Positions 723 to 24,490 of a stretch of 28,291 bases of DNA are shown in pieces. Below the pieces are notes generated by a model. That model ran no database searches. It saw nothing but the letters and a program-made list of their open reading frames with translations, and was not told the origin of the DNA. The stretch is from assembly GCF_000003605.2 (NCBI RefSeq), contig NW_003107094.1, forward strand, positions 104,017 to 132,307, given 5' to 3'. Within the stretch, counting starts at the first letter, position 1. Each line of letters opens with the position of its first letter. The stretch comes from Saccoglossus kowalevskii. Taxonomy: Eukaryota > Hemichordata > Enteropneusta > Harrimaniidae. The position numbers were made by a program, and so were the translations under genes.

Positions 723-1994
723 CTCCCGAGTATGAAGCCCATCCCTCTATTTTTACTGGATATTTATCGAGTTGAGGGCATTCACGATTATAATACAGGG
801 CGTCGACAATATTTTTTAAAATATGCGTGTAAAAAGTATGTTTCATTTCATAATAATCGGGATTAGCATGGTAGTTTGGTGCGTGCTTTTATGAGAAAAC
901 TCGCATTAATTTCAGAGCGCATGGCGAACGTACACAACGTGGTTCCATCCTTTCTATTCTTTCATTTACTCGGGATGAACCCCGATGGAGTAATCCATAT
1001 TCCTTTGAGTAGTAGCTTTTAAAAAGCCCAAAAAATGTGATCGTTATTAAGTCGTATACCTGGTTATAGGTTGTGATAAGTTGGTGACCGTGAAAGGTGT
1101 TTAAATTCTTCATCCACACTCAGTTTACCAACGGTTACTATTATAATAATAATTTATTGACACTTACACATTCCCCGGAGGGATTGGCAATGGTTACAAA
1201 GGTTTAAGAAGGAATAAAAGGTTACAAAGGTTACAAAAAAGTAAATAGATAAAACAAAATAAAACAAACAAAGCTAATACATTACAGAGAATAACCAGTA
1301 TAAAATTAGGATACTATAATAGATAGAAAACAAAATGCAAAACTTGTGAAAGAAGATTGTCACTATTAACCGTCGTTTACTTTTCGGAAATTGCGAATCG
1401 CCAGTTTTAGGAAACATACATCGTTCTTTCGTTGCAATCAGTGCTACAGATTTTAACATTGCGGTAATTCACGTCCGCATTGCGTTAAAAAATCATCCTC
1501 AATAATCGGAAAATTTCATCATTACGACACATCATTTTGATTGGTTAATGAAAGACATGACCTGTTAGGTCAAAGGAAGTTGTTTCAGGTCAAATCGTGC
1601 TGAAAAATCTCATGGTGAAAAATTGCTTTGCGTCGAGAGTTTGCGTACGATAATGATAAATGCCTTCGTCCACTGTTTCCTCACAGACCCTACCCATTAT
1701 TACACCGTAAATTCAGACGGTATGTAAATCGTATTGTAATAAAATGTGTGTGTTTTTGATGAACATGTTTGTTTCTTCATTGTAAGTGTCGCATTTTTTT
1801 CTTCAAAAATAAGTATTATTTTCCCGAGCCCGGCGTGGTGAACGAATAATTTTTTTTGGATATTTTTTCGTTGTTGGCAAGATGGTTACAGCGGGGGTTA
1901 CAGTGTTTAACCCCAAAACAAAATCATCTTTTCTGAGTTGGTCCTCGAGTATAAGCTCACCCCTTACTTTTCCCTTACGTGTTCATATGCCTCC

Positions 1995-2020
1995 GGGCTT
2001 ATGATCAGGGAAGTACGGTA
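1995..2020 (+). repeat. Dispersed repeat copy 2
   Basis: This is the + strand partner of 698-722: GGGCTTATGATCA followed by GGGAAGTACGGTA. See that entry for the comparison. Confidence 0.6.
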
Positions 2021-2612
2021 TACTGTGAAGATTCAGATCAGTCCGAGTGAGTGATGAGAGTATATCGTCGACGACGCCCCTTGTTCTGATGATAGTTTTA
2101 TTTCAAATTACCCGGAAGTCTGTCAACAATCTGCTTGGTGTTCCTGTGACAATTGTCCCATGATTTGCCAGTGCAGCCCCTTGAATAAATGGACGAAAAT
2201 GTTTCCACCACCACCCTACGAACTCAAGATTGCATACTCCAGCATCCATACTTTGAAATAACTTGCACGCACAGTGCAGTACTGGAAACAGCATTTATTA
2301 GACAGTTAGACAAAAAAATGCCTGGCTCGATCAATCGCACATCCATAATGTTTGTATGTTGGTACGCTTAAAAATAATATTAACGTAAAAGTCGAAACAA
2401 CCTAGACTAGAAGTCAATTCACCAGTCCAGACAACTATGGCTCCCTAAGTTGTTTATATTTAATCAGATACTATTTCGTCATCATGCTTTGTTACCTTTC
2501 TGGTTTATACCTCGCGAGGGCGTTGTTTTATGGCAAGATGGCGCAAACGGAAGTCCTTCGCAGGTTTATGGTTTCTCATAATTAAATCATCATAACTCTG
2601 AAGATAATCATG

Positions 2613-2632
2613 TTTTATTTATTTATTTATTT
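2613..2632. repeat. TTTA simple repeat
   Basis: TTTA units run for about 20 bases and are followed by an AT-rich stretch. Such runs often form the tail of retroposons, but no element body is recognisable beside it. Confidence 0.7.
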
Positions 2633-3409
2633 CAAATTTATAATCAATATACATAACTTGATAAACAAAAACACCAAATTAGGCTTCATTTAGTTCCCCT
2701 TTAAAGAAGAAAAATGTTGTCTATGACTGAATAACTGGAGATTAAATCTTGGTTTGTTGGCAATAATTTCGTTCCAACAACAGCGCGATACAAAACGTTG
2801 CTTAGCGATAACCTTACGCGTTGCCCACGGCACGTGGACTATTGATTATATATATATATTTCAAGTAGATGACCTTTATCTTGCCTGAATTTTGCAGAGT
2901 CACCGTGATAGCATGGTCCCCCTGCGACATCTCCGTAAACCCAGGGAATAGTTTGTACGAGAGAAATATACCAACATTTACGCCTGAAATGATAAAAAAA
3001 TACTAAATTATTATTGAGTACAAAAAACATTCAATCCATTTACTAAACTTATTTAGAGAAACGTGTAATGTGTTATTTTTTGTTGTTGACGGGATACAAA
3101 GGGTATATATTGTCCACCACATGAGGTAAACTCATCCACATGTAATACGATAACAAGGTGTCGTTACTAGTTTGAGTTTTAAAGGGCGATTGTTGCCGGT
3201 TGTCTGTTCGATATGGAACTCATAGCGACATATACAACGCGTGTAAAATACATTCATTGTTCACATGGAATTCGAACACGCGCTGCGCGACGACCGCCTC
3301 CTGTTAAATTATGGCTGGACATGGTCTTACTACGTTTATCATGCACCCGGTATACGGAGATTTCGGCTTGGGGAAACAGTAACAGCTTAAGTAGTAATGT
3401 GCAAACAAT

Positions 3410-3627
3410 TCCGATAGCCCGGTATCATTCGGACTTTGTTACACGGTTGTGTAAGGTGGGACTATCACGTGACCACAAATCAGCACGGTCATATGGTATA
3501 ATAAGTAGATGTTGGAATATACATTTGAGTAGCCACTGCAGCACGAACCTTATTCATGCGATCGTATACACCAGCCATCATTTGCGGCACATCAAATTCC
3601 CACGCAGATTAAGCAGTCTAAATAACC
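3410..3627 (+). promoter_or_regulatory. Probable GST promoter and 5' UTR
   Basis: The block is directly upstream of the GST start codon and is duplicated in front of the exon-1 relic at 8225-8345, which argues that it is part of the original gene unit. It contains an E-box-like CACGTGAC (3466-3473), a half Maf/antioxidant-type site AATCAGCAC (3478-3486, TGCTGATT on the other strand) and a TATA-like TATAATA (3497-3503). A TATA box there predicts a start of transcription near 3527-3533 and a leader of roughly 95-100 bases. The two short sites keep identical spacing in both copies. Factor binding is inference from motif resemblance. Confidence 0.5.
3556..3612 (+). other. Possible upstream ORF in the GST leader
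   Basis: An ATG at 3556 opens an 18-codon frame closed by TAA at 3610-3612, 15 bases before the main ATG at 3628. If transcription starts at the predicted TATA-driven site, the upstream frame lies in the mRNA leader and could dampen translation. No such frame is kept in the relic copy, where the matching region is replaced by a T-run. The transcription start is predicted, so this stays tentative. Confidence 0.3.
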
Positions 3628-3760
3628 ATGCCTACCTACAAGTTACATTACTTCAACCTCCAAGGCCGCGGGGAGATCATTCGCTTGGTGTTCGCTGCAG
3701 CGGGCGTTGAATACGAAGAAATACAATACGAGTTTAAAGACTGGCCTACAGTTAAAGGCA
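3628..3760 (+). CDS. GST exon 1 (residues 1-44 plus 1 base)
   Basis: It starts MPTYKLHYFN and contains the catalytic Tyr8, then GRGEIIR and the DWP motif (38-40). The exon ends in phase 1 before the consensus donor GTAAGT at 3761. The reading frame runs on past the donor to 3834, but that part has no GST similarity. Confidence 0.95.
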
Positions 3761-6700
3761 GTAAGTCAATACATACTTATGCATTTTTTGCATATAGAGG
3801 GCACACATTCTATCGCTATGTGTATTCGAGGTAATCTTAATCTATTCGCCTTGGAGACACATTTCGCATCTAGCAAAAAATAAAATCATTTTTTTGTAAA
3901 AGCCACGAAGCAGGTGATCGAGGGATGTTGTGATATGAAACCCATACATGATAGTGTTATACTCAAATACCGCTGTGGTTAAATCTAAATAACGCGATAT
4001 ATAGAGGAACTGCTTTGGAAAATCGAAGTCAGTGGAACGTTATTTTCATACACATTTCGTTTGAGCGTAAAGCGAGCTAGAATCTATTCTTGCCGTGTAT
4101 GTTGCTGGGTGACCTTACTCGCGCATGCGCTTGGTTTGTTCACATTAAGGTGTCGTCTGTTGCTTGATCTCCCGATGAACGAAATTTTGATTTGGGATTC
4201 GAGTTTCTCAAATTTTGGCAAGGGAAATTGGATCCTACGATAATTGGAGAGAGGAATGAATTGAGAGAAATTATTCACTCCCAGAAATTAACAACGATGC
4301 TACAGCCTCTGTCAGGGTGTTTAGAGAGCAAAGCCACAGTCAGCTGGCGCACGCGTGATAATAAATAAAAAAAAGCGATATTTACTATATGAGGGCCGCC
4401 ATCGTTAATGCGGCATAAAACTAAATAAGAGACAAATTGTGAAACGCGTTTTTCAGATTCCTACAAATCAGGACAAAATGCCAATCTTTCACAGAAATAC
4501 GATCCAATGGGGGGGGGGGGTAATATAAAGGCAACCGAAAATTCGGCCGAATTCGTATTTTTTGTGTGGAAGAATCCCTTAAATACGAACACCAAATTAC
4601 ACGAAGAACACTTTCTAGGGGTATTTGAAACAAAAATTTGTCATTCCAGCTCAGCAGCCAATCAGCGACGGCCTTACAGTTAGATGACAATTTCGGTTTC
4701 GAAACATCGAAATCGATATACCTTAATATATACCGCCGCCTCTAGTTACAAAGCGTTTTTTATGACGTGATTGGGTGACACTAAGGCCATTCAAAGCGTC
4801 GATATCGAAGATTATGGTTTTAAAAGATCTCACTCTATTCCTGCTGATGAACGACTATATACACAACCAAATACAGTGATCAATTTCAATGACATTGTCG
4901 ACATATCCTCGTGCGGACATCCGGGCATTTTCACCGCCTTGCAACCATCACGGTAAAAACAAAGACCGAAAACTCTAGCAAAAACTGTACTTTAGGGTGG
5001 TTGCTGAGACTCTGCTGAACATGTGCAACATAGATAAATTTGGTTGTTCAGGATTATTTCAAAGTTGAGTTTGTGCTGTTTTCTCGACCCTAGCTGTTTT
5101 CACCGGTTCTTCGGCCGGTGTTCCACAGCAGCTCACGCAGTGCTCATAGAAATGCATTAGAGGCGGCGTCACTAAATTTTGCACGAGGGGCGAGATCTGA
5201 ATAACCAACCTTGTGCCGAATGCGCGGCCTTTCTACGGCCTCCAGGGGTATACTCCACCTCAGCAAATCGCTATTTCCTGCATTTTGAGGGGCAAATTTT
5301 TACACAAAGGATTTCAGCTTTTTTTTTCGAGGGGCGATTGCCCCCCCCTCGTGTCGCCGCAACTGTACATGTCAGAGTGGTGCGCGCCTTAGCAACATAG
5401 AAAATTCTGTGGCGTAGCTTCACCCCCAAGAATAAGTCATGTTGATATCAAAAAAGCGTTTTATCAGTAAGAGGGCACATTTTATATGAATAGCAACAGT
5501 ATGAACAGAACACTCAACACATAGTAGTGACAAGTGATATTTTCATTCGAAATTTGTCAATACACGTACGTATAATTTATAAAACTTTTTTTCTTTCATT
5601 TTCACATAGCTAACACGACTTACAAAAATGTTAAGTGTTTTTGTCAATACTGTATTGTACTTTGATTACAGATTTTCCTTTTGGAAAGCTTCCTTGTCTT
5701 GAAGTCAATGGGGATTATCTACCGGAATCCAATACAATTGCTCGTTATCTCAGTAATGAGTTTGGTAAGCAGTTATCAAATCAAGCTGGAAAAAACCGGC
5801 CTGCAAATTCAGGAGACAGGAAATTCAGAAAATACGCAGCCAAAATCCCTTAAAATCTAGCATAATTTCTAGCTTTTTGTAGTCATAATCACCGTAATTT
5901 TCAGATGTTTTTGTAATTTTAAGTCATCACAATAATGCATGGACATTATGACAATTTGTTGGCGCTATTCGCATGCGCTTAAGCGGATAAATACAACCGT
6001 TAGTCAATTACGTGGCATGACCTTTGTTCATTTTTTACCTTTTCTTTTTATGGCGCAATGTTTCCCATTTTACACCAGTTTTCAATCATACAACTTTATT
6101 CAAACCGGATATAACCCAGTGTCATTTCTGATTATTGAATAATCAGCTGTCTGATAACCATTATAAAACCGGTATATTCATGAAATAGATATTCTTCATA
6201 CATAAATCGAACTTGGATTTACCATAATCATAATGATGAAACAACACATTTAACTGATACAATTTTATTCCTGCAACAGTGGTCCTTGAATATGTGTTAA
6301 CTTCGTTTATAGGATTGGCAGGGAAAACGAAATGGGACAAGGCCCGTGTTGACATGATTACTGACGCCTTAGTTGATGTAACTGAGGCGATTTTTAGACG
6401 TTTTCAAGAGAAGGATGAAAAAAGAAAGGTGGGCAGACACAAGCTGTCAGTATGTGCATGAGCACAGAGTCATGCAATATCAAAAGAAGTTTTATTGACA
6501 ATCTATCTTTTCCATTGAATGAAATACACTTCGATATTATTGACTACGTCAGTAAAGCGTAGGATAGAGTAAGCTGATTTCTAATGATCAATTTCCCGCA
6601 TGGCTGTAATTATTTTAAAGGCAATATTACTTGAGGAGATAGGAACAAAGCTTGCACCAGAGTGCTTTGCGTCACTGGAGAAAATACTTGGTGCCAATAG

Positions 6701-8554: not shown

Positions 8555-9878
8555 GTAAGTACAAATTCGAATAACAGTTTACCCACACCGCAGGGACAAT
8601 GGATATTGAAAGGTGCTAAACCACGGTCTGTTGAGTTTAATTAAACAATCTTTGTATACTAATGCATTAGTACAATTAGTTCCCTAAATGTAGGTCTTAT
8701 ATATCTAGCGCCCTCATTTGCAATAGGTACAAGTTAATTTGTTTTTGTTTTGTTGAGGAGGGGGGGGGAGGCTTTCGTCACTCGCGTTATTTACATGATC
8801 CATAGCAAAATTGCATATTAATTAATTATTGCTTAGTGATTTTTCCTAAAGTTTCTGGAAAATAATTAATTTCATAATATGAGGTTATTACGAGGATGCC
8901 TCATCGTATGCAGGAAGACAGTACAGCGAAGTATCAACCGACGCAGCGATACTACGATATTATTGTACATCTTTCCTCCTAATGACATATCTTGGGAATG
9001 CCGACATTGAAAAAGTTTAGAACAGAATCAGCAAACTTCTTTGTATGGAGTCCGGTTAAACTCCGGTGGCAGCCACGTGTGTTTATATCATTAGAGGACG
9101 CTTACGCGTGTAATCATTCCATATTTGGAATTCGCATTTCCTAATATGGTAGGATGCAAATACCCCGTAAAAAAAAACGCAAAATTACGACATGCTATAA
9201 CTTATGGCGTTACGGTGACAGATGTATAATAATACTCATTATTGCTTGATAACATGCAAATCAGAGACCATTATTTAAGCGTACATCCCCGTAGGCAGTG
9301 AATATGCGTGCAGTGGCAGCTTGAGAAGGAAAAAGTCTGCATTTAAGTCAGGACGTCGTAGAAGCTTGTATGCAAGTTATACGCTGTAAGTCCAGAGTCA
9401 AACGACATAGAACACGTTGATCAGGTGATTTTTCAAATAAAAATGACTTAATGTGAAAGCGTCATATCTAGCTTGTTATTAAAAAGATACTCGCACAAGT
9501 GGTAAACTATTATATATTATTGGGCCTGTCTCGCACACATATACTTAGAACGTTAGAGAACTGACATACGATCTGCACAGTAAATACTTATTGCAAAGAC
9601 ACGAGTGTACGTATATTTCATCACGGGTAATGACATGTGTGGCCTCGTGAAACAGTCTCGAGGGTTAATAGACTTATACTAGTGGCCGAATAAACCCATG
9701 CAATATGTGTTTTATAACACATCACCCACTCATACTCGTACTATTCATCAACACATGATTCATATCATCACGTTTCAGTATGAGTGGAAGCATTGTCTTT
9801 GGAATAATAAAGATTTTAATTCGTAACATTTTGTATACGTTCACAATATGTGGACTTTTATTTGAACACGCAATCTAA

Positions 9879-10149: not shown

Positions 10150-12244
10150 TTCTCTCTATAGCATCCTATACTTCTTAATATGCTGGACTCGGATTTATGA
10201 CCATTCACTCCCACTATGTCGTGCCTCGAACCCGCTGCTTTCTAGAGCTTCCCATGAGAATTAATAACTTTCATGGCGCAACTATGGTAATATAGTCGAT
10301 ACCACGTGACACGGATTTTAATAATGGGTAGCGTGAAACTAACGAGAAGAGGTGAAAATCGCCTCCACCCACTGAGTGTTGAATACGATAGTTATTGAAT
10401 GATTGCACACAATATTCTTCAATGTAATTATCCGCACACTATTCTGCATCAATGTTAGATGACGGTGGAGAATAGAAGAAACAGAGAGAAAAAAAATCCG
10501 ACGTAACATCCGGCCTGTTATTCAATGAGACCAAACTAGAATTAGGGTAGTAGGGTATCTGTAAATCAAAATGCGTTGCACTTTATTTATATATCATGTC
10601 ACATATTTCCACGTATACTTATTTTATTATGTGATTCAAGATGGCTGTTATCAGCCCATCAAGAGAGAATAAATATTTGGCATTGACGGCATTTCGTTTT
10701 TTTTTCAAGCGCACATTGCTTTATTTTTCTCCTAAAAGCCTGTGATATACAATCAACACGCAAAACATTTTTTTGATCTATTGAAGTATGGATAAACAAA
10801 TAATTGAAATGTTTAAAATTTTTGCCGGAAACCAATATGGCAGCGAAATCACGTGACTGTCTGAAGGAGTTCAATGTAGGAATGCAACATCATAAATTTC
10901 ACCTCAATCGGGAATCTATAAGGCCAGTTTAAAGCCATTTTCTGTTTAGAAGACGCCCATTGTAGCGGCCAAACCATTTATCAAGCATAAAGGGCTTTTA
11001 CAAAAAAAATCGAAGTTGAATATGACGAGGAAGTTTTGTTAACATATCTTTATTTTCACGTAATCATTGTTCAATAAATGTTTCATTTTCTATATAAAAT
11101 TGTATTACAATAAAAATTGTCATTCAAATTTTTCATTTGACAATTTAAAGTACATGCTTTCAGTGTAAAAGTGTCATATGATGTAAGTGTTCACATTGTT
11201 TAGTATCCAATTAAATAATAAATGAAGGTAAAACATCGAAGAAAAAGTTAAACATTTATTTGTAGATCATCACTGAATCCGTTTTGCATATTGAATATTC
11301 TTCAAAGCTACGCAGTAGGCAGTGTGTACTATTGCGAGAGGTTATGTCATCTACGTAATAGGTTGTGTCGTGACGTAGTAAAACGGATGTGCTTGACGTT
11401 AGGGTTAGGCTTGTAAGTTGAACAAGTACAAAGATTACAGTCGTCGTCTGTATATGGCAATAAGTAATACGTTGCATCCAGAGTAATTGTTGAAATTTTT
11501 AGTCACACATAAATCCATAAATCAGTGCATTTGGATGATGATACTCCTTCCGAGATGTTGAATGGATGTGGATTTAAGCAGTAGGTACGTCAGCAAAAAC
11601 TCCTGCGGCAAATCCGACTACCACGACCCGCCGTGTGCCAAAAAATGGGAAATTATAAGTGTACGTGTTAACTTGAAGTAATCGTTTTCTGAACTAACTA
11701 AAGAATGTGAAACATATGTTCTAATATATTAAATAGACAATCAAATACCGATATATCCATGGAATATAGGGATAAAATAGCGTATATACTTGTGTTTTCA
11801 ACATTACTCGAGAAATAAGAATGTATAAACTAATAAAAATGAAAGGAATAGAAATCAAAGCGAATTAATATTTTTCGTTATCTTGGATCAGATTTGCTGG
11901 TATTCTTATAGGTATACCATGGAGACAAAATCGGGCTTTGGTTTTCATTTAATTATGTTGTGCTTCGTCCCCAGAATAATTACTTGCGGTTTGCTTAGTA
12001 TGTGCAAAAGACATTATATAGGCAATATACAGAGACATATAACTGCATCCCGCCTGAATATTCTACAACTGGTTGCAACTGACATTAGAACCTAATAAAT
12101 ATGTTTACGATGGACAAATCTTAGATCAACGACGTTACTATATAGCACATTGTTAACATTAGAAAAAGTGAGTAGAATGCCTTATATCGAGAACGGGTGA
12201 CCCAAATGGAGTTAACAGTCGATTGAAGTCGATGTAAGTGTATG

Positions 12245-13290
12245 ATATCTTTATCCGTTGATTTTCAAAGAAAAACAAGTCTGTGACAAAGTACATAAAT
12301 TAGATACATAAACAAGTAGATTGTAAACATATTTCGTACATCGTATTTTTAAAAGCGGGTTGCAGAAACAACTGGAGAAAGTGTTATTCTGCGGTTGGGG
12401 GTTTGTTGTGCATCTAGAGGTTTGGGTAATAGACAACGACCCACCAAGAGACACTATTCTATTCTTTTGATTTTTGCCGCAATTGCATGACCCTGATTGC
12501 GCTAGAGTATATAGTACGTGCGTTATCGCATACTGAGCCAGCCATAACGTACATATTTCCAGAAAGTAAGTAGCCGAATTTCAATATAACAGCANNNNNN
12601 NNNNNNNNNNNNNNNNNNNNNNNNNNNNNNNNNNNNNNNNNNNNNNNNNNNNNNNNNNNNNNNNNNNNNNNNNNNNNNNNNNNNNNNNNNNNNNNNNNNN
12701 NNNNNNNNGATTCCCGAATTACTCTTTCTTCTACGATTTCGCAATAATATACTGCACCGATTAATAGACATAGACTTCAAATAAGTTCCTTTTGAAATCT
12801 AGATCTGCGCCACGTAGGGGTGGTTTATCTAAGAGAAAATAAAAACGGAGGTTTTTTATCAGAATGGCATTATTGGAACAATTAACACAGTGACACTTTT
12901 CTTTGTTTTCGAAAGTGTATGCAGTTCGAGTAGTGGCACGTCTCAAATAAACGAATCTAAGGTTCTCCATCTTCAAAAATAGTTAACTGTAGATTTTCAG
13001 AATATTGAATTTTCATATTGAGTTTTTGCACCATCTTGTTACATGAATGAATGTGTTGACCCTCCATCAAATAATATTATATTACTATAGTTATTTCGGT
13101 ATATGTGGATATTTGAGCAAGTGCTGTATTCAGTAGCACAGAGCTTGGTCCCCCATCATTTTTTGTTTTGACGAGTTTGCTTGAGTTGGGGCGTCTTTTT
13201 TGTATTATTTGTTGTTGACGTTAGAGATTATCGTCACGTTGATAAGTGCTTAAAGACGTGCAGTATTTCCTGTTACATAAACAAATCTAA
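12245..13290 (+). repeat. Diverged long repeat, copy A
   Basis: It shares ordered landmarks with copies B and C: ATATCTTTATCCGTTGATTT (12245), TTGTAAACAT 75 bases later, a TTTTTAAAAGCG block, TTTTTGCCG (about 12470), CCAGAAAGTA (about 12559), a TCAGTAGCA block (about 13130) and, shared with B only, GACGTGCA then TTACATAAAC (about 13255-13288). The assembly gap removes part of it. No protein is encoded. The element type is not recognised. Confidence 0.75.
12595..12708. other. Assembly gap (114 N)
   Basis: Undetermined bases. The gap falls inside repeat copy A, where similarity to copies B and C may have impeded assembly. Confidence 1.
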
Positions 13291-13546: not shown

Positions 13547-13588
13547 AGATTGGGTAGATTTACAGTGGAGTTCATTCAATACTTTATA
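13547..13588 (+). repeat. Short repeat matching the left flank of copy B
   Basis: TTGGGTAGATTTACA then GGAGTTCATTCAAT matches CTGGGTAGATTTATA then GGAGTTCAATCAAT at 16210-16245. Confidence 0.6.
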
Positions 13589-15267: not shown

Positions 15268-15395
15268 TTTTTGTCCCTTTATTATAATCTGCCCTAATTT
15301 CAAAATGGCGTTTTAGGGATGGGACTTACAATCAAACTGGCTTGTTGGAATTAAAACATAAATTACCTCGTGCTTTTTGTTCCTTTATTGTCTAC
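15268..15395 (+). repeat. Direct repeat, first copy
   Basis: It shares AATTTCAAAATGGCG, the AATCAAACTG block, then TTGGAATTAAAACATAAATT and CTCGTG with 15455-15575 in the same order. Confidence 0.65.
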
Positions 15396-15454: not shown

Positions 15455-15575
15455 CTCCTGTTTGTTCCATTGTCTCTGTCCGAATTTCAAAAATGGTGGT
15501 TGGCGTTTAAGGAAGGTGACCTATAATCAAACTGCTTTGCTGGGATTAAAACATAAATTATTTCGTGGTTTGTGA
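15455..15575 (+). repeat. Direct repeat, second copy
   Basis: Diverged partner of 15268-15395 (AATTTCAAAAATGG, AATCAAACTG, TGGGATTAAAACATAAATTA, TTCGTGG). The offset is about 185 bases. Confidence 0.65.
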
Positions 15576-16245
15576 TAATATATTGACTATTGCATAATAT
15601 GTGTTTAATGAGTGGCCCGATTTGTTACAGAATGCACTGGATTGATGTCGACTCTTACAGTTCTCAAATAAATGATGCTTTTCCTCTTTATATGTGCAAT
15701 AAATCGGACATGCTCCTGTTATATTGCTAGGATTTATTTTTATACTGCTTTACTAGATTCATTGATCATTGAGCAGTTATAGTTTAAGAATCTGATACTC
15801 CAAGATAATCTCTTATAATTTATGCTGTAATTCATATTTATTAGCATGGAGTTGTTTTATAATTTGTCAGCACTTTGTAATTTAGTTGAATCTAACTGTT
15901 TCTGCGTTGAACTTTTCTCGTATATTAATTTCTGAATGAAAAGATTTCTGTTACTTTGTTTAGAATTACCACTCACTGAGCTTAGGTGTTCATGTAAAGA
16001 CTATATTTTTTGTTCCTCTTTCAAGCCGTAGTACCAACAAACTGCCAGTGGAAACCACTTCAGTAATACTAGACTGACCAAATCTTTATAATGCATATGT
16101 ACTCTTCAAAGGGTTTTTTCAAGTGTTTAGGTTGCCTGTCATGACCTGGAACGGGAACTTACCTCTATGCTTGAAACAGCCATCTGTCCAAACTTCACCT
16201 TCACTAATGAACTGGGTAGATTTATAGGGGAGTTCAATCAATTTT

Positions 16246-17010
16246 ATATCTTTATCCGTCGATTTTCAAGGAAATTACGTCTACAGTAGTACGTGCTCAG
16301 TAGTATTTGAACTAATCTATTGTAAACATTGATATATCGTATTTTTAAAAGCGGGTTACATACATTACTAAAGTGTGATTTGTTGGCACAAAAGGAGGCG
16401 TCGCACAAAACACTATGCTATTCTTATTGATGTTACTGCATTTGCCTGACCCTGTATTCCCTAGTGAATTTAGTAACAGCGAAGCTAAAAGGTTTTCTTT
16501 CTTCTGCAAAAACAAAGCTTGCAATAACGTATAGATTTGTAGTACTTGTAGATGTATTTCATACATAATGTAATGTATAATAGGACCAGAAAGTAGACAA
16601 CCGCATTTGGATAGTAGATCCGTTGAACCTAGTCCTAGACTTCTACAAATTTCCTATCAAAATCTACACTGAAATTGTATGCAGTTCGAATAGTTTCAGA
16701 CAAATAAACATATCCGGAGTTTTCAATCTTCAAAAATTATAGAATTTCCGAATGTTCAATATGGAGGTTTTGTGTCAAATCTTGTGATATAAATGACCGT
16801 GTTGCCACTTAATCGAATAATATGAGTATCGTATTTATTTCAGAAAATTCGTCTATTTCCGCCATTGTCTTCAGTAGCATTGAGCTGGCTATCAGAACAT
16901 TTTTACGAAGCTTGATAAATGTGTCTGTTTGTATTTGTTGACGTGGTAAATTCGTTAGAAACGTTGTGGACGTGCAATGTTTCTTGTTATATAAACGAAT
17001 CAGAGATACG
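16246..17010 (+). repeat. Diverged long repeat, copy B
   Basis: Landmarks in the same order as copy A: ATATCTTTATCCGTCGATTT (16246), TTGTAAACAT 74 bases later, TTTTTAAAAGCGGGTT, CCAGAAAGTAGACA (about 16588), TCTTCAGTAGCA (about 16870) and GACGTGCAATGTTTC then TTATATAAACGAATC (about 16969-17002). It is uninterrupted, so it is the best reference copy. Confidence 0.8.
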
Positions 17011-17174
17011 ATTTCAGTAACACGTAATTAGACAATTCCTACTGGGTGACGTCATGATAGAACATCGCTTGCGTAATTACTTGCGTGGTGCGCATTGAAT
17101 GATTTTCAAAAGAATTAATACAAAACCTACTACGCACTATAAACACTCATACGATGCAGGTTAACAATAATACG

Positions 17175-17955
17175 ATATCTTTATCCGTCGAAATTCATCC
17201 AAAAAAGGTTTACGTTATAGAACATTAATATGGTACTTAAAGGAGTATATTGTAAACATATTTGATACATTTTATTTTTAAAAGCCAGTGACATATATTG
17301 CTGAACTAAGCTCATGTGGCGTTTGTGGATTCGTTGCGTGCACCCAGACGCTCACGTAATAGAATACGGCCAGCCAAGAGAAGTCGCATAAAAACACTTC
17401 ATTCCCTTTCATTTTTGCCGTAGTTGCCTGTTTCTCTATTCCCTAGTGTATTTGGGTACGTGCTATGCTAAAATATATTCTTGTTCGCTGTAATCGAATT
17501 CATTCTGTAAATACAGCAATACATTACTTGTAGATGTATTCGTGCATGTCTTGCATAATAAGACCAGAAAGCAGACAGCCAAATTCGTATAGCCCAGCAT
17601 TAGCCTTCAAATAACTTTGTCTTCTAATCATACTCTATAATAATCTTCACATATTAAAACAGATATTTCAAATAAGTCTAAATATAAGCCCCGTAGGGGC
17701 ATAGACATTTTTTGAAAATCAGCGCGGCGAGTTTATTTTGTTCCCTCATGTGTATGGAATTGTAATATCCAATGTATTCTATTTTTAAAAGTACTTAACT
17801 ACAGGATTTCCAATTTCCTCATATCCTGTGAAGTGATTGAATACGTTTCTCCTTGTCGAATAGTATGGTTTTAGCGAAGAATTGAAAATTTGTGAATATT
17901 TCAGCAACTGCTGTCTTCAGTAGCACTGCGCTTGGAATCATTTTGGGTTCGTGTT
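17175..17955 (+). repeat. Diverged long repeat, copy C
   Basis: It begins ATATCTTTATCCGTCGAAAT, with TTGTAAACAT 75 bases later, TTTTTAAAAGC, TTTTTGCCGTAG, CTATTCCCTAGTG (shared with B), CCAGAAAGCAGACAGCC (about 17573) and TCTTCAGTAGCA (about 17912). It lies 929 bases after copy B, a tandem arrangement. A perfect hairpin GCCCC-GTA-GGGGC sits at 17688-17700. Confidence 0.8.
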
Positions 17956-19213
17956 TTGATACTTGATGTGGTTACAATGTAGAATGCAGTTGAATATCAA
18001 ACCAGAGGCGCATTGATTTCTATAAAATTGACTCCCGATTCCATCAGTAATAATGAGAAAACGAGATTTTAACCCCATCATATGTGTGTTAAATAGTATA
18101 TGGCTCTGTCCATAAGAAATGCAAAAGAGTTGAAGAGCATGTTGAAGAATATACATGCATGGTGCCGGATAGTTGATTACGCAGATATTGAAATTTGAGA
18201 ATACCATAGCGATTAGTAAACTGATTATACCTGTTTGTTATATCTTGTTTTGTTATTTTGCACTCAATCTTTAAATAATTCTGCTCTTCATTTTTAAAAG
18301 ATGTAATAAGCTCTTAAGTTTTGTCATCTGCTTGCGGTGGCCTCTTCCGACCACGCCACCTTGAAAATTGACTTTGTACGTCGACTCTACAATCTCAGCT
18401 GTTGTAATACATTAATAGACTCCCTATGTTGGCATCATACATGTGTAAGGTGGATAGGGAATTGTAACCGCAATGATATGTACGTGTTAACTTAAAGAAA
18501 TTGTGTATTTAAACTAGATAAAAAAAATACGTTGAATACTACAGTCGAACACCAAAATAAAGTTGTTCTTTTATATGGCTGTATAGCTTCAATGTCAGGA
18601 TTGCATGACATAGTAGTTTTGAAATCGCGCCGTCGCAATCTGGAGTATTGTACCAGTGCATAACGTGAATGTAATCTGAATGGCCCACCCATCCTTTGCC
18701 ATGTATACAGATCTCAATATAGGCGTTAGTCATCTGTGCTAACATCTTACACACCCATTGTCTGCCTTGAACGGAAGTACTGCCACGATTTAGCTTTGAA
18801 TAAACCCGTGATTGACAGTCGTTTTGATGAACCTCGTAGTGGTTTAAGGTAACAAGAATTGTGTTATTTAATGTTTTCCAGCCCTGAAACGTTAACATTT
18901 TTCATTGGCTTGTGGATCGTTGTTTGATATATTTTGCACTAATAATACAAAAATATTTACTTTCAAAAATACAAATTGTGACAATAAATCTTGCCCGAAT
19001 AATAAACTAAATTGGAAATTGTCATGATCGTATGAGACGAAGAAATAAATTACTTCATGCATTCTAATGATCAATAAGAACCATTTTATGTAGCAAACAT
19101 ACATCCGATGCCATCTTTTAGTTTATACACCCGGAGTCGAGGTTGAAATGTTTTGAGCTTTGTATTTTACAATTCGATAGTAATCAGAATGTTATTATTA
19201 CAAACTGGGCGTT
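17956..19213. other. Stretch between repeat copy C and the transposon-like element
   Basis: The only notable content is a 119-codon - strand frame at 18539-18898, rejected below as chance-sized. No RNA gene or repeat is seen. Confidence 0.45.
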
Positions 19214-19225
19214 CACTGTAAATCT
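19214..19225 (+). repeat. Left terminal inverted repeat
   Basis: CACTGTAAATCT, a perfect 12-base inverted match to 22790-22801. Confidence 0.6.
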
Positions 19226-19499
19226 TTGTGTTTTAAAGTATGACACATTTTTGTTCCCACTTTAAAATAACTTTAAGTGATTTATAATTAAACACATTAG
19301 GTGTTTTTTCTCAAAATCGCTAATGAGTTATTTTACAACACTACTGTTTTAAAGTAAAACATTTATACTGTTTTGTGATAAAACATTTAAAGTGTTTATA
19401 AGGTTGTCCCCACTTTAAAAACACTTAAAGTGTTTATAATCTGCATAATTGCGAGAAGTGTATATTATGAAAACCTTTTTCAGGGATGTGTTTGCCCAT

Positions 19500-19960
19500 A
19501 ACACATTAAAAACACGTTTTTAAAAGTGTTTCTACCAGAAACATGTATATATAATGCTTATTATCACAACACTTTTAAAAGTGTTTTACTGGTCACACAT
19601 TTCTAAAGTGTTTCCACCAGAAACATGTATAAAACATGTTTATTATCACAACACTTTTTAAAGTGTTTTTACTAGACACACATGTTGTAAAGTGTTTGCA
19701 CCAGGAACATGTATAAAATGTGCTTATTATTACAACACATTTAAAAGTGTTTTTACTAGATACACATTTTGTGTTTATAATCACGATACGTAGAAAAAAG
19801 TCTAAACCAAAGACATGTTTTAATAAAGTGATTTTACTGGCCACACATTGAAAAGAGTTTCCACCAGAAATATGTATTGAAAAAGTGTTTATCATCACAA
19901 CACTTTGAACAGTAAAACACAATATTGACAAGTGCTCGTAACAGAGACACATTTTAAAAT
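19500..19960 (+). repeat. Left subterminal tandem array, 82-84 bp units
   Basis: The word CACAAC/TACAAC recurs at 19565, 19647 and 19731, then degenerately to 19896. Each unit carries AACACTTTTAAAAGTGTT-type palindromes, ACTRGxCACACAT, a second AAAGTGTTT, CCACCAGAAACATGTATAAA and a TTATTAT end. The 18-base sequence at 19568-19585 is a perfect palindrome. A - strand open frame across it (19593-19952) is a by-product of the repetition. Confidence 0.8.
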
Positions 19961-20526
19961 GTATTTACACCGATTACATGGTAAAAAATCATTAACATTA
20001 TCATTTTTGAAAACAAAATATATCAAGTGATGTGTTTCATGATGAGACACTTTGCACTATTGTACAGTAATCATAACAAACGGCAAACAAACCACATAAT
20101 CAAGTAAGAATGTATTCATAAATATAAACATTAATAAAGTAAGTTCGAGTGTAACATTTAAGAGAAACAAACATGTATAGTTGTTGTAAAAGATATTATC
20201 AATCGCGTGAGTAAGTGTGTTTACTAGTACTGAAATTCAAACCTTTCGTGGATATAATACCCAATATTTGCGAACACTTACACTTCAAAACAGATGAGTA
20301 ATTAACTGAAACGAACAATAACATCTTTGAACCTGTTCATTAGTAACCCATATTAACAGGACAAAATTAATTCCCAATATTAGCAGTTTCATCTTGTTCG
20401 CTCCGATCGCTTCTCTTAAAATCTGAAAAGTATAATATTATCAAAATGCAGTAAGTAATGTTCAAATAATTATCATTATTGTTTCAAACAATGCGATATA
20501 AGATGAAAATATTATTGTTGTTATAG

Positions 20527-20820
20527 ACTAACGCGCATGTAATGAGAAGACGAGAATATGACCACAAACAAATTGAACTGGAATTTCCTGTTAAATTCTG
20601 CAACATTTCTATGATTGTATTTGGTAACTCAGATCTTGATCTGTGGGATGTCGGTATGGACGTAATGTGGTATGGAATTCTCTGGTCCTGCAAATTCATG
20701 AACTTGATTGAAGCAGTTATCCCGCACACAAAGAAATTAATGGAGGCCGCTGCAGATGTCAATGTAGTACACAACTGCCAACGCTGGCTTTATCAATTAC
20801 ACTTTCCACACGCTTCGTAA
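20527..20820 (+). CDS. Unassigned candidate coding segment in the transposon core
   Basis: After a possible acceptor TTGTTGTTATAG, an open frame runs from 20527 through an ATG at 20542 to TAA at 20818-20820. From the ATG it is 92 aa, for example DLDLWDVGMDVMWYGILWS and HTKKLMEAAADVNVVHN. Composition is protein-like and GC is higher than the flanks. I recognise no domain, and it has none of the D-D-E signature spacing needed to call a transposase. It may be captured host sequence, a relic exon or chance. Confidence 0.25.
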   Translation, partial: TNAHVMRRREYDHKQIELEFPVKFCNISMIVFGNSDLDLWDVGMDVMWYGILWSCKFMNLIEAVIPHTKKLMEAAADVNVVHNCQRWLYQLHFPHAS

Positions 20821-21557
20821 CGGAGTAACAATATCATCATACCTTCAGGTTTGTTTAGAATAACTTCTGGTTCCCTTCTTTCCTCAGAAAATCAAAAAAG
20901 ACTTCACTCGGTTCAAGTTGTTATTGCTTCTTCAACGAATATCCCACCTGTCCACGCACTCCCGATAGTATAATTCAATCTGAATGAGCGTGCGCACTAC
21001 ACGAGTTACCAGTTACTTGAACACGCAACATACATTAATGTCAATCGTCGTTTACGAAAGGTATCTCAAAATATTTGTAAAGAAGTAGCAAACTTATTTA
21101 TTGTTCAATATTTATTTTCATATTGTATTTATTGTATTAATTAAGTTTCTGAATAACAATTTAATGCTTATGTATTATTAGAGGCTTAAAGGAGCTCGTT
21201 TAAAAATAGGCGACAATTTGCATAGGTGCGTGGTAATCACCTTATTGGAATTCAACACCGAGGCTCCGCCAATAGAATAATTGCTGTTAAGAAATTGAAT
21301 CTAATGACATTTAATAATTTCCTGTCTATAGCGCACCGTCGTCCAGCTTACTAACTCGAGCATTGATAACAACACCAGCATGTTTAATTCCATCGGTTAT
21401 TAAACTTGTGGCAGGTACAAGGTATGCACACTCGCAAAATACTAAAAACGGTAAATTTATCGCTACATGCACAGTATGACTTGCTGCCAAATGGGACGTG
21501 TGTGAGCATTTCTCCTCAATAAATATGCTGCATACAGTCGATAATAAGTAGTGTGTA

Positions 21558-22160
21558 TATTATAGGTTGAAACATTGCATGTTTGTTTTCTGAAGTGCTT
21601 CAAAATAAAACAGTTTCAAAGAAAAGTGCTTTAGTTACTCTTATGATATTTTGTACATGTCATATACATAAACACTTATAAAACATGCATAGTCGGGTGT
21701 TTTATCTTGAAACATTACATGTGTGTTTGTTTTAGAAAGTGTTTCAAGACAAAACAATTTGTAAAAAAAGTGTTATAGTTACACTGATGAAATTGTGTAC
21801 ATGTCGTATACATAAACACTTATAAAACATGCATAGTCGGGTGTTTTATCTTGAAACATTACATGTGTGTTTGTTTTAGAAAGTGTTTCAAGACAAAACA
21901 ATTTGTAAAAAAAGTGTTTAGTTACACTGATGAAATTGTGTACATGTCGTATACATAAACACTTATGAAACATGCATAGTCGAGTGTTTTACCTTGAAAC
22001 ATTACATGTGTGTTTGTTTTAGGAAGTGCTCCATGATAAAACAGTTTAACAATTTGGAAGATAAGTGTTTTAGTGTTTTACTCTCATAAACACAAATGTG
22101 TCTTAAACATTAACACTTTAAAAACATTTATAGTTTGGTGTTTTGTGTTGAAACATCGTT
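21558..22160 (+). repeat. Right subterminal tandem array, 143-144 bp units
   Basis: CATAAACACTTATxAAACATG starts units at 21667, 21811 and 21954, preceded by a partial unit from about 21558 and followed by a decaying one. The 21667 and 21811 units differ, as far as I can read, by one small change near GTGTTATAG/GTGTTTAG, which implies recent duplication. Each unit carries AAACACTT, TGTTTTATCTTGAAACATT and GAAAGTGTTTC. Confidence 0.85.
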
Positions 22161-22524
22161 GGTGATTTTGCTTTTTGGAGCGGTTCAAATTGAGCATTTT
22201 TCGAGAAAAAATACAAGGGAGAATGCACAGATGTGATTGGAACTACCGTTCACCAAATGCGGATTAGTAAAACTTAAGGCCACGAGGTACATAATTCACC
22301 ACGTGTCTCGATTTCTAGTTGTACTTAGGTTGGTAAGACCATATAGGTTGGTGCGTGACATAACATTATTTTCTGGATTTAATGTCATAACCCATCGTAT
22401 CATTACGTCACTTTCGGTGATTGTCGTTGGCATATATACCATCATGTTTACTCACGAGTCCCGAGACTTTTCACTCAATTTCGCATAAACGAGGATGCAT
22501 TAGTCCTTGAATGTTCTATCAACA

Positions 22525-22700
22525 AACACTTTAATTACACATTTATGTCACCGTAAAACACCTAGTGTTTTATTTCGGAAAAGTGTATTTTTGTGTGTTT
22601 ATAATGTGCTTAATTTTCATCAAAAAGTGCTTTAATAACTCCCTAAAACACTTTTCTAAAAATACTAAAACACTACTGTTTCGATATAGAAAACAAGTGT
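22525..22700 (+). repeat. Right-end subterminal motif cluster
   Basis: Non-tandem copies of AAACACTT and AAGTGTTT with near-palindromes such as AAACACCTAGTGTTT (about 22556-22570). They precede the right terminal repeat. Confidence 0.6.
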
Positions 22701-22789
22701 TTTATTATATAGTACGCATGTTTTTAATTACAACAGTGTGTTTTCAACTAAAACGGTGTGTTTTAATGGAAAACATGAAAGTGCTTCCG

Positions 22790-22801
22790 AGATTTACAGT
22801 G
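22790..22801 (-). repeat. Right terminal inverted repeat
   Basis: AGATTTACAGTG, the complement of the left end 19214-19225. Confidence 0.6.
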
Positions 22802-24490
22802 TTGGTATACGTCCTTTGAAGGTACACAATGCTCTCTGAAACATATTGGAATGCATTATTCAATATTACCGGTAATTTTTGTATACATGTTTTCAAAACA
22901 AATAGTGTTTTGTTTTATCTTTTTTGTACTTTTTATACACATGTAATAAATAAGTCAATACAAGTAGATTTTCATGATGACGAGTTGATGCAATTATACT
23001 ATAGAGTCATGCTACATTGAAAAATGTCGTATATTTGTTGTTTCTCATTTTCCCTGTTTTCTGAATTAACAATAATATTATTACCACGAGACACTTTCCA
23101 TTCCAAAATATGGTCTATGCAATGAATATCCTTTTAGTTTGTGTGAATGTTATTCGTGATTTAGTCTTTTTGTTGGCAAAAGAAAATTACATTACAAATA
23201 CGACGTAAGTAAACTTGCAAAGAAGACAGGTACAACGCACAAGACCTATACACGATATACCCCAATATAACTTGTCTCCTCTGCTTTTCTACTCGAGCGT
23301 GGGTATGTGTTACCGTTAGTTTCACCTTCATAAAAACACTGTCATTATTGTCATGGTATCATACGTTCCGTGGTTATATAGTAACACATTTATTGCGATG
23401 AAAATCAGTAGTTGCGGTTTCACTTATTCCAGGGCTGAGAAGAATAGAGTACTGTTAAATTATAATAGGATAATATACCATATATATACCATAATGACGT
23501 AATGCTGAACGCCATGCAAAGCATATGTCAAATATGTTCAGATTAATTGATATTTGTGGTAACAAGTAAACAATAATATCAATAATCAATACAATGTTGC
23601 TCTGACTCCTTAACACCTAACACCTTAACCTAAATAACATTATTATCGTATGCCTTTAATATCACATTTTTACTCTCGCAATGTCGGTAATATTCAGCTA
23701 TTGGTCGTCTTTCCACTGCTTACTACTTTACCTTCATATTAACAATTGTATTTTATGGTTTCTAAAGCTAAAGACGATTCGAAAATCAATAAAAAATATG
23801 ATAAACTACATTGTTAAATTAACTGTAATTCGTGGACAATATTATATTGCCCAATTTGTAAACCATCTGTCACGCCATCGTGTTATCTATTTTATTTCGC
23901 GTCAATGAGTGGGAGTTAATTGCAACATAACAAATGTAATGAAGAAATATGTAATTTATAATTCCTACGCATTTTTTTAGGCAAATAAGGTGCGACAAGT
24001 TCAACTGTTCTAAATGTTGACTAATATTTTGTAATTATTTTGTTATATCTTCCCAATTTCGTTCCATTATTCGTCATGTTACCTTGTATGCATTCACAAC
24101 AGAACTGAATATGAACAGTTAACTCGTGGTATATTTGTTGAAATACAATGTTACCACAAAATATTGTGAATATTAATTTGACACTTTGAACTATCTCCGT
24201 TTGCACTCAGTCTCATATGCAAAAGCTGGCCTATTACATATAACGTAAGCTGCGTGTATGTTGTTTAACAACGTGTATACGAACAGTCACTAGACACATC
24301 ATCATCCTGGCAGTTGAGTAAACCTTCGGCTCCTTCAGCTTACTAGATAAACTTAAATTTTTAGATGACTTATTATATTTGTTCTAGAGTCAATCACGTC
24401 TATCTGTGAACATTCATTTATTAGACACGCCATTTGCCAAAAAAACAGTGTACTATAAATTACAGACACAGTGTGCACATTTAAACATGC
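22802..24490. other. Gene-poor stretch right of the transposon
   Basis: AT-rich sequence in which every open frame is short and hydrophobic, as expected by chance. No feature is recognised. Confidence 0.5.

Follow-up and report, generated by a model that had tools for sequence, protein, structure and literature searches.

The segment at positions 19214–22801 of the window (by which we mean the whole stretch of DNA analysed, 28,291 nucleotides) is one copy of a real, well-bounded, multi-copy family of DNA transposons with terminal inverted repeats. The family is new, of a known kind and mostly ordinary in its features. No description of it was found in the portions of the literature searched, a scope outside which Repbase and Dfam fall, and one could still have been published. 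The parts of this copy are as follows, in window coordinates.

19212..19213, left target-site duplication, TT
19214..19225, + strand, left terminal inverted repeat CACTGTAAATCT, an exact 12-mer
19214..19963, + strand, left subterminal zone with 10 AAGTGTTT/AAACACTT motifs, 13.3 per kb
19420..19434, dyad AACACTTAAAGTGTT
19523..19769, + strand, tandem array of an 84-bp unit, 3.0 units
19568–19585 and 19650–19667, further dyads
19964..21563, + strand, core with 0 AAGTGTTT/AAACACTT motifs in 1600 bp
21564..22801, + strand, right subterminal zone with 10 AAGTGTTT/AAACACTT motifs, 8.1 per kb
21580..22047, + strand, tandem array of a 144-bp unit, 3.3 units
22719..22775, + strand, tandem array of a 20-bp unit, adjoining the right end
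22790..22801, − strand, right terminal inverted repeat, an exact 12-mer that reads AGATTTACAGTG on the + strand
22802..22803, right target-site duplication, TT

The perfect 12-bp inverted repeat that a sequence-only reading had placed at both outer edges is exact at 19214–19225 (+) and 22790–22801 (−), and positions 19212–22803 read TT, CACTGTAAATCT ... AGATTTACAGTG, TT. The window holds 41 pairs of exact inverted 12-mers spaced 0.5–6 kb apart; the 19214/22801 pair alone has both a CA start and a 2-bp direct repeat (TT) outside both arms. The ends are of the CACTA/CACTG type, here CACTG. A third exact CACTGTAAATCT occurs in the window at 13556–13567 (−) without the rest of the element. It does not resemble an element end: it sits in a short diverged local repeat, the other copy of which (16213) does not carry the word.

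Whether these borders are shared was examined in the genome's own 572-Mb assembly of 4830 contigs. The left 247 bp matched at least 40 places, the window included (40 scored of 202 candidates), and among the matches listed homology began at base 1 of the element in 35 of 40. The right 242 bp likewise matched at least 40 places (40 scored of 198 candidates), with homology ending at base 242, the exact right edge, in 34 of the 40 matches listed. The same termini thus recur in dispersed copies, and the breaks at 19214 and 22801 proposed from the single copy hold in the genome.

We examined 20 copies of the left end, those ranked as most similar to the one in the window, each with as much as 8 kb of the sequence that follows it. 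The right end was found in 13, which gives 14 two-ended copies with the window. No right end lay within the examined stretch in the remaining seven (L018, L020, L021, L023, L026, L027 and L028), among which L026 ends at a contig end and L021, L023, L027 and L028 enter N stretches. In six further copies of about 4 kb each, the right end was present in L046 and L050 and unrecognised in L047, L048, L049 and L051. A joint alignment of 8 full copies (8 of the 14 two-ended) gave pairwise identities of 83–93%, the closest to the window being L010 at 92.5%; the figures for L009 include core sequence that is foreign to the family. Of the 20 examined copies, 13 match the 1600-base core over 800 bases or more, and 9 over 1200 or more. 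The ranking by similarity of the left end favours such copies, so 13 of 20 is not the share in the whole family. Copies with both ends around different cores had been expected. Sharing of half the core or more in 13 of the 20 departs from this, although the copy on contig C1359 does combine the two ends with another interior, in which 10 of 1600 core bases match.

Several copies depart from this plan. L016 (element at 1001–3455, turned) combines the left half of the family with a right half unrelated to it and has TA on both sides; only about 11 terminal bases fit the right end, and it is a possible one-sided swap or sister family. L012 has an extra ~3.6 kb, partly N, inserted into its right array. 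The core of L009 carries an unrelated insert at about 2440–2910 that contains, by eye, an inverted repeat and may be a nested foldback element. In L048 a second piece of family core lies at 3233–4000 (turned), in the opposite orientation and shortly downstream of the first copy. At G000:C955:7763-20999, left and right ends stand 13.2 kb apart with CA/CA flanks and a partly N interior, which we take, pairing the ends by inference, as an unusually long copy or a copy into which other sequences have inserted.

The flanks of these copies define the target. The same 2 bp stands on both sides of 16 of the 19 copies in which both edges are readable (12 TA, 2 TG, 1 TT and 1 CA), a target-site duplication of fixed length. 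Matching pairs occur in 12 of the 14 comprising the 13 copies and the window, with TA in 9, TG in 2 (L010, L015) and TT in the window; L016 is counted among the TA matches on its roughly 11 terminal bases and TA flanks. Five additional two-ended copies contribute TA/TA (C3160, C1359, C3701), CA/CA (C955, with ends joined by inference across the 13.2 kb) and TA/CA (C1605). The flanks are unlike in L019 (TA/TG), L024 (AA/TA) and C1605, that is, in 3 of the 19. Outside the tally stand C1212 (right edge ambiguous), C2106 (left end truncated), C1240 (contig end) and C2595 (partial right end). On the left, the flanking dinucleotide in 38 of the 40 listed copies, C1759 and C2106 being set aside and some edges being placed by inexact matching, is TA in 30, TG in 5 and CA, AA and TT in one each. 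On the right, 20 short fetches gave TA 13 times, CA twice and TT, AA, TC, AT and AC once each, the AC (C1212) being off by one base. TA makes up 9.5% of dinucleotides in the flanking DNA. TA is strongly preferred as a target, yet not required. Matching 2-bp flanks together with exact shared borders therefore identify a terminal-inverted-repeat transposon that makes 2-bp duplications with a strong preference for TA. Empty sites carrying a single TT had been predicted; the usual duplication is TA, with TT in this copy, and when the flanks of 14 copies were joined and compared with the fetched loci, none of those loci proved to be an empty site.

Inside the borders, the most conspicuous feature is the distribution of one short word. 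The 8-mer AAGTGTTT/AAACACTT occurs 23 times in the window on both strands against 2.9 expected from dinucleotide shuffling (100 shuffles, highest count 9), and only 3 of these lie outside the element (0.12 per kb). It had been described as enriched in both orientations at both ends. Enrichment is present at both; the right zone (1238 bp) has five forward and five reverse sites, and the left 750 bp is lopsided, with nine forward and one reverse. For the 8-mer, the core is strictly motif-free in this copy and almost so across the 14 two-ended copies, window included. In that set we counted 116 motifs in 10,137 bases of left end (750 bp each; 11.4 per kb), 71 in 17,160 bases of right end (the last 1240 bp of each; 4.1 per kb), 6 in 16,472 bases of core (0.36 per kb) and 4 in 62,365 bases of flanking DNA (0.06 per kb). 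Reiterated subterminal motifs, a feature of CACTA/EnSpm elements, are thus present both in this copy and in the 14-copy set.

The two different tandem unit lengths noticed originally, 84 bp and 144 bp, are confirmed, besides the 20-bp unit. An 83–84-bp array was called in 9 of the 14 two-ended copies (2.5 to 5.0 units) and a 142–144-bp array in 6 (2.2 to 3.4 units). A palindromic AACACTT-AAGTGTT pair occurs at least once in 12 of the 14, the two copies with none being L013 and L014. The word CACTTTAA, one base apart from the start of the terminal repeat, CACTGTAA, has all 7 of its occurrences in the window inside the element; the looser CACTNTAAA is found 7 times inside and 3 times outside. 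The subterminal site may therefore be a relative of the terminal end, a resemblance between short AT-rich words that is to be held lightly.

Nothing recognisable as a transposase is encoded here. Ten ORFs of the window had no Pfam match at cut-off, including two of about 100 amino acids within the core (19964..21563), and comparison with the phage collection and Rfam gave no match. The absence of a transposase that had been asserted from the letters is thus upheld for the tested ORFs, in which Pfam revealed no transposase domain. Because the core ORFs lack a Pfam match and half or more of the core recurs in 13 of 20 copies, the element looks non-autonomous.

The only candidate for a partner is C1359:198995-209380 (L060/L061), which has TA on both sides. 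Its left 754 bp is about 70% identical to the element and its last 1.1 kb about 77%; 46 AAGTGTT/AACACTT sites lie in its left 1.5 kb, open frames lie between its ends, and N fills about 2.2 kb of the interior. It also contains an inner site resembling the right end, AAATTTACAGTG followed by TA, which ends at 9174 of the joined stretch, and so has two candidate right borders, both followed by TA. Its ORF pieces had no match at cut-off in Pfam (10 pieces) or NCBIfam (5 pieces), with the interior partly N. One 77-aa piece had a weak zf-C2H2 match below cut-off (E 0.045), and a PDB search with one piece returned the fingers of PRDM9 (E 0.029). A DNA search found the coding-like stretch once in the genome, and therefore no further partner copies come from it. 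The C1359 copy could be either an ancient autonomous relative or an element that carries foreign sequence.

Other repeats and frames lie near the element and its copies. A diverged three-block repeat occupies 12241–13163, 16246–16904 and 17171–17935 of the window, on the same strand and with pieces 67–85% identical; it is a further element, either dispersed or duplicated locally. Two direct repeats, at 15288–15394 and 15475–15589, are 75% identical over 115 columns. A short dispersed repeat at 8874–9243 is common to the window and the C1359 interior (L060, about 4220–4515) and also occurs in L003, L008, L009, L014, L015 and L063. By eye, the flanking ORF L018 4251–5252 (−) resembles a receptor of the rhodopsin type and L014 2–991 (−) a reverse transcriptase of the non-LTR kind; both would suit an animal genome, which this large one probably is.

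The element shares features with several described groups, which we compare as the cited passages describe them. Plant En/Spm CACTA elements have short CACTA/CACTG ends, 13 bp long in Tgmt* (PMC2613891; PMC10741241), and the asymmetric reiterated subterminal motifs of Tgmt*, which are TNPA-like binding sites there, are like ours by description (PMC2613891); TNPA recognises such subterminal repeats, which are cis-determinants of transposition (PMC2613891). Plant CACTA elements differ in making 3-bp duplications, as reported in the text cited (PMC10741241), where this family makes 2 bp, and neither tnpD nor tnpA was found here. Animal TRC CACTA elements such as SmTRC1 and its kin make 2-bp duplications, and SmTRC1 has a tandem-repeat region; in the sections cited they differ in encoding Transposase_21 and in having ends that start CCC, not CACTG (PMC1636069; PMC4298943). 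Neither group therefore fits fully. CNEST, the clade of which groups with unclassified animal transposases (PMC12810828), and the EnSpm-like ESTA (PMC12730594) both make 2-bp TA duplications, predominant and not exclusive in our family, and share its 5' CA. Both are described as gene-bearing, unlike this element, and CNEST has 33-bp ends that start CACGG. CNIRT6 is described as a CACTA element with CACTG ends (PMC12810828), and the wider CMC group as having CA..TG ends common to most members and duplications of 2–5 bp (PMC12730594).

We consider it probable that the element is a non-autonomous cut-and-paste transposon, belonging to a multi-copy family mobilised by a trans-acting DDE transposase of putative CMC (EnSpm-like) type. 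Terminal-inverted-repeat elements of this kind are moved in a cut-and-paste manner by a DDE transposase acting in trans, which is why we assign that mode of movement. The explanation builds on observed ends, borders in many copies, 2-bp duplications, target preference and a motif layout that recurs in other copies. From the CACTG ends, the TA-biased 2-bp duplications and the subterminal repeats we infer an enzyme of CMC type. The DDE transposase, supplied from another locus, would cut beside the CACTG ends and join them to a target staggered by 2 bp, preferably TA, leaving a 2-bp duplication (TT here). The dense AAACACTT/AAGTGTTT sites would most likely bind the transposase or an accessory protein, and protein loading on them would pair both ends as TNPA does in En/Spm. 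Several of these candidate sites form short dyads and several share the CACTTTAA core with the end CACTGTAA. The original assignment to CACTA/EnSpm stands in so far as this is a mobile element with a CACTA-like layout and CACTG ends that works like a CACTA element. Membership of CACTA/EnSpm is unproven, because the duplication is 2 bp and not the 3 bp of plant CACTA and no transposase is tied to the family.

A bolder version, which we regard as doubtful, would make the family an undescribed animal branch of CMC that targets TA, with arrays multiplied from terminal sequence (CACTGTAAA to CACTTTAAA) and an autonomous form of the C1359 type, about 9–10 kb long and coding on both strands, one with a C2H2-finger-like exon and the opposite one with a second gene.

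Other origins would account for parts of the evidence. Tc1/mariner elements have a strict TA target, a rule broken by the TG/TG (L010, L015), TT/TT (window) and CA/CA (C955, pairing inferred) flanks, which make TA a preference only; long subterminal arrays and CACTG ends are also not known as features of mariner-type elements. A non-autonomous element of some TA-targeting superfamily outside CMC, whether Tc1/mariner or Harbinger-like, is thus unlikely, although TA does stand at 30 of 38 left edges and the Harbinger-like PHISTA is, in the passage cited, named for its TA duplications (PMC12730594). The TT on either side of this copy and the tandem arrays could also recall a non-autonomous derivative of a Helentron. 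Helentrons (Helitron2) insert between T and T without a target-site duplication, often with tandem repeats. The duplicated TA or TG of other copies contradicts such an origin, the ends form a symmetric 12-bp inverted repeat, and we give it very little credence. Finally, the left and right zones are partly tandem repeat, and the isolated 12-mer at 13556 is a case of the word outside any element, as a local satellite or chance arrangement with no mobile element would have it; identical borders with 2-bp duplications in dozens of contigs rule this out for practical purposes.

A genome of animal size thereby gains a sharply bounded family whose ends are CACTG and whose 2-bp duplications are biased towards TA. 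The TA-biased target and the end-like subterminal sites are points of mild interest, and the likeness between the ends and the subterminal motif offers a testable idea for the origin of subterminal arrays of the CACTA type.
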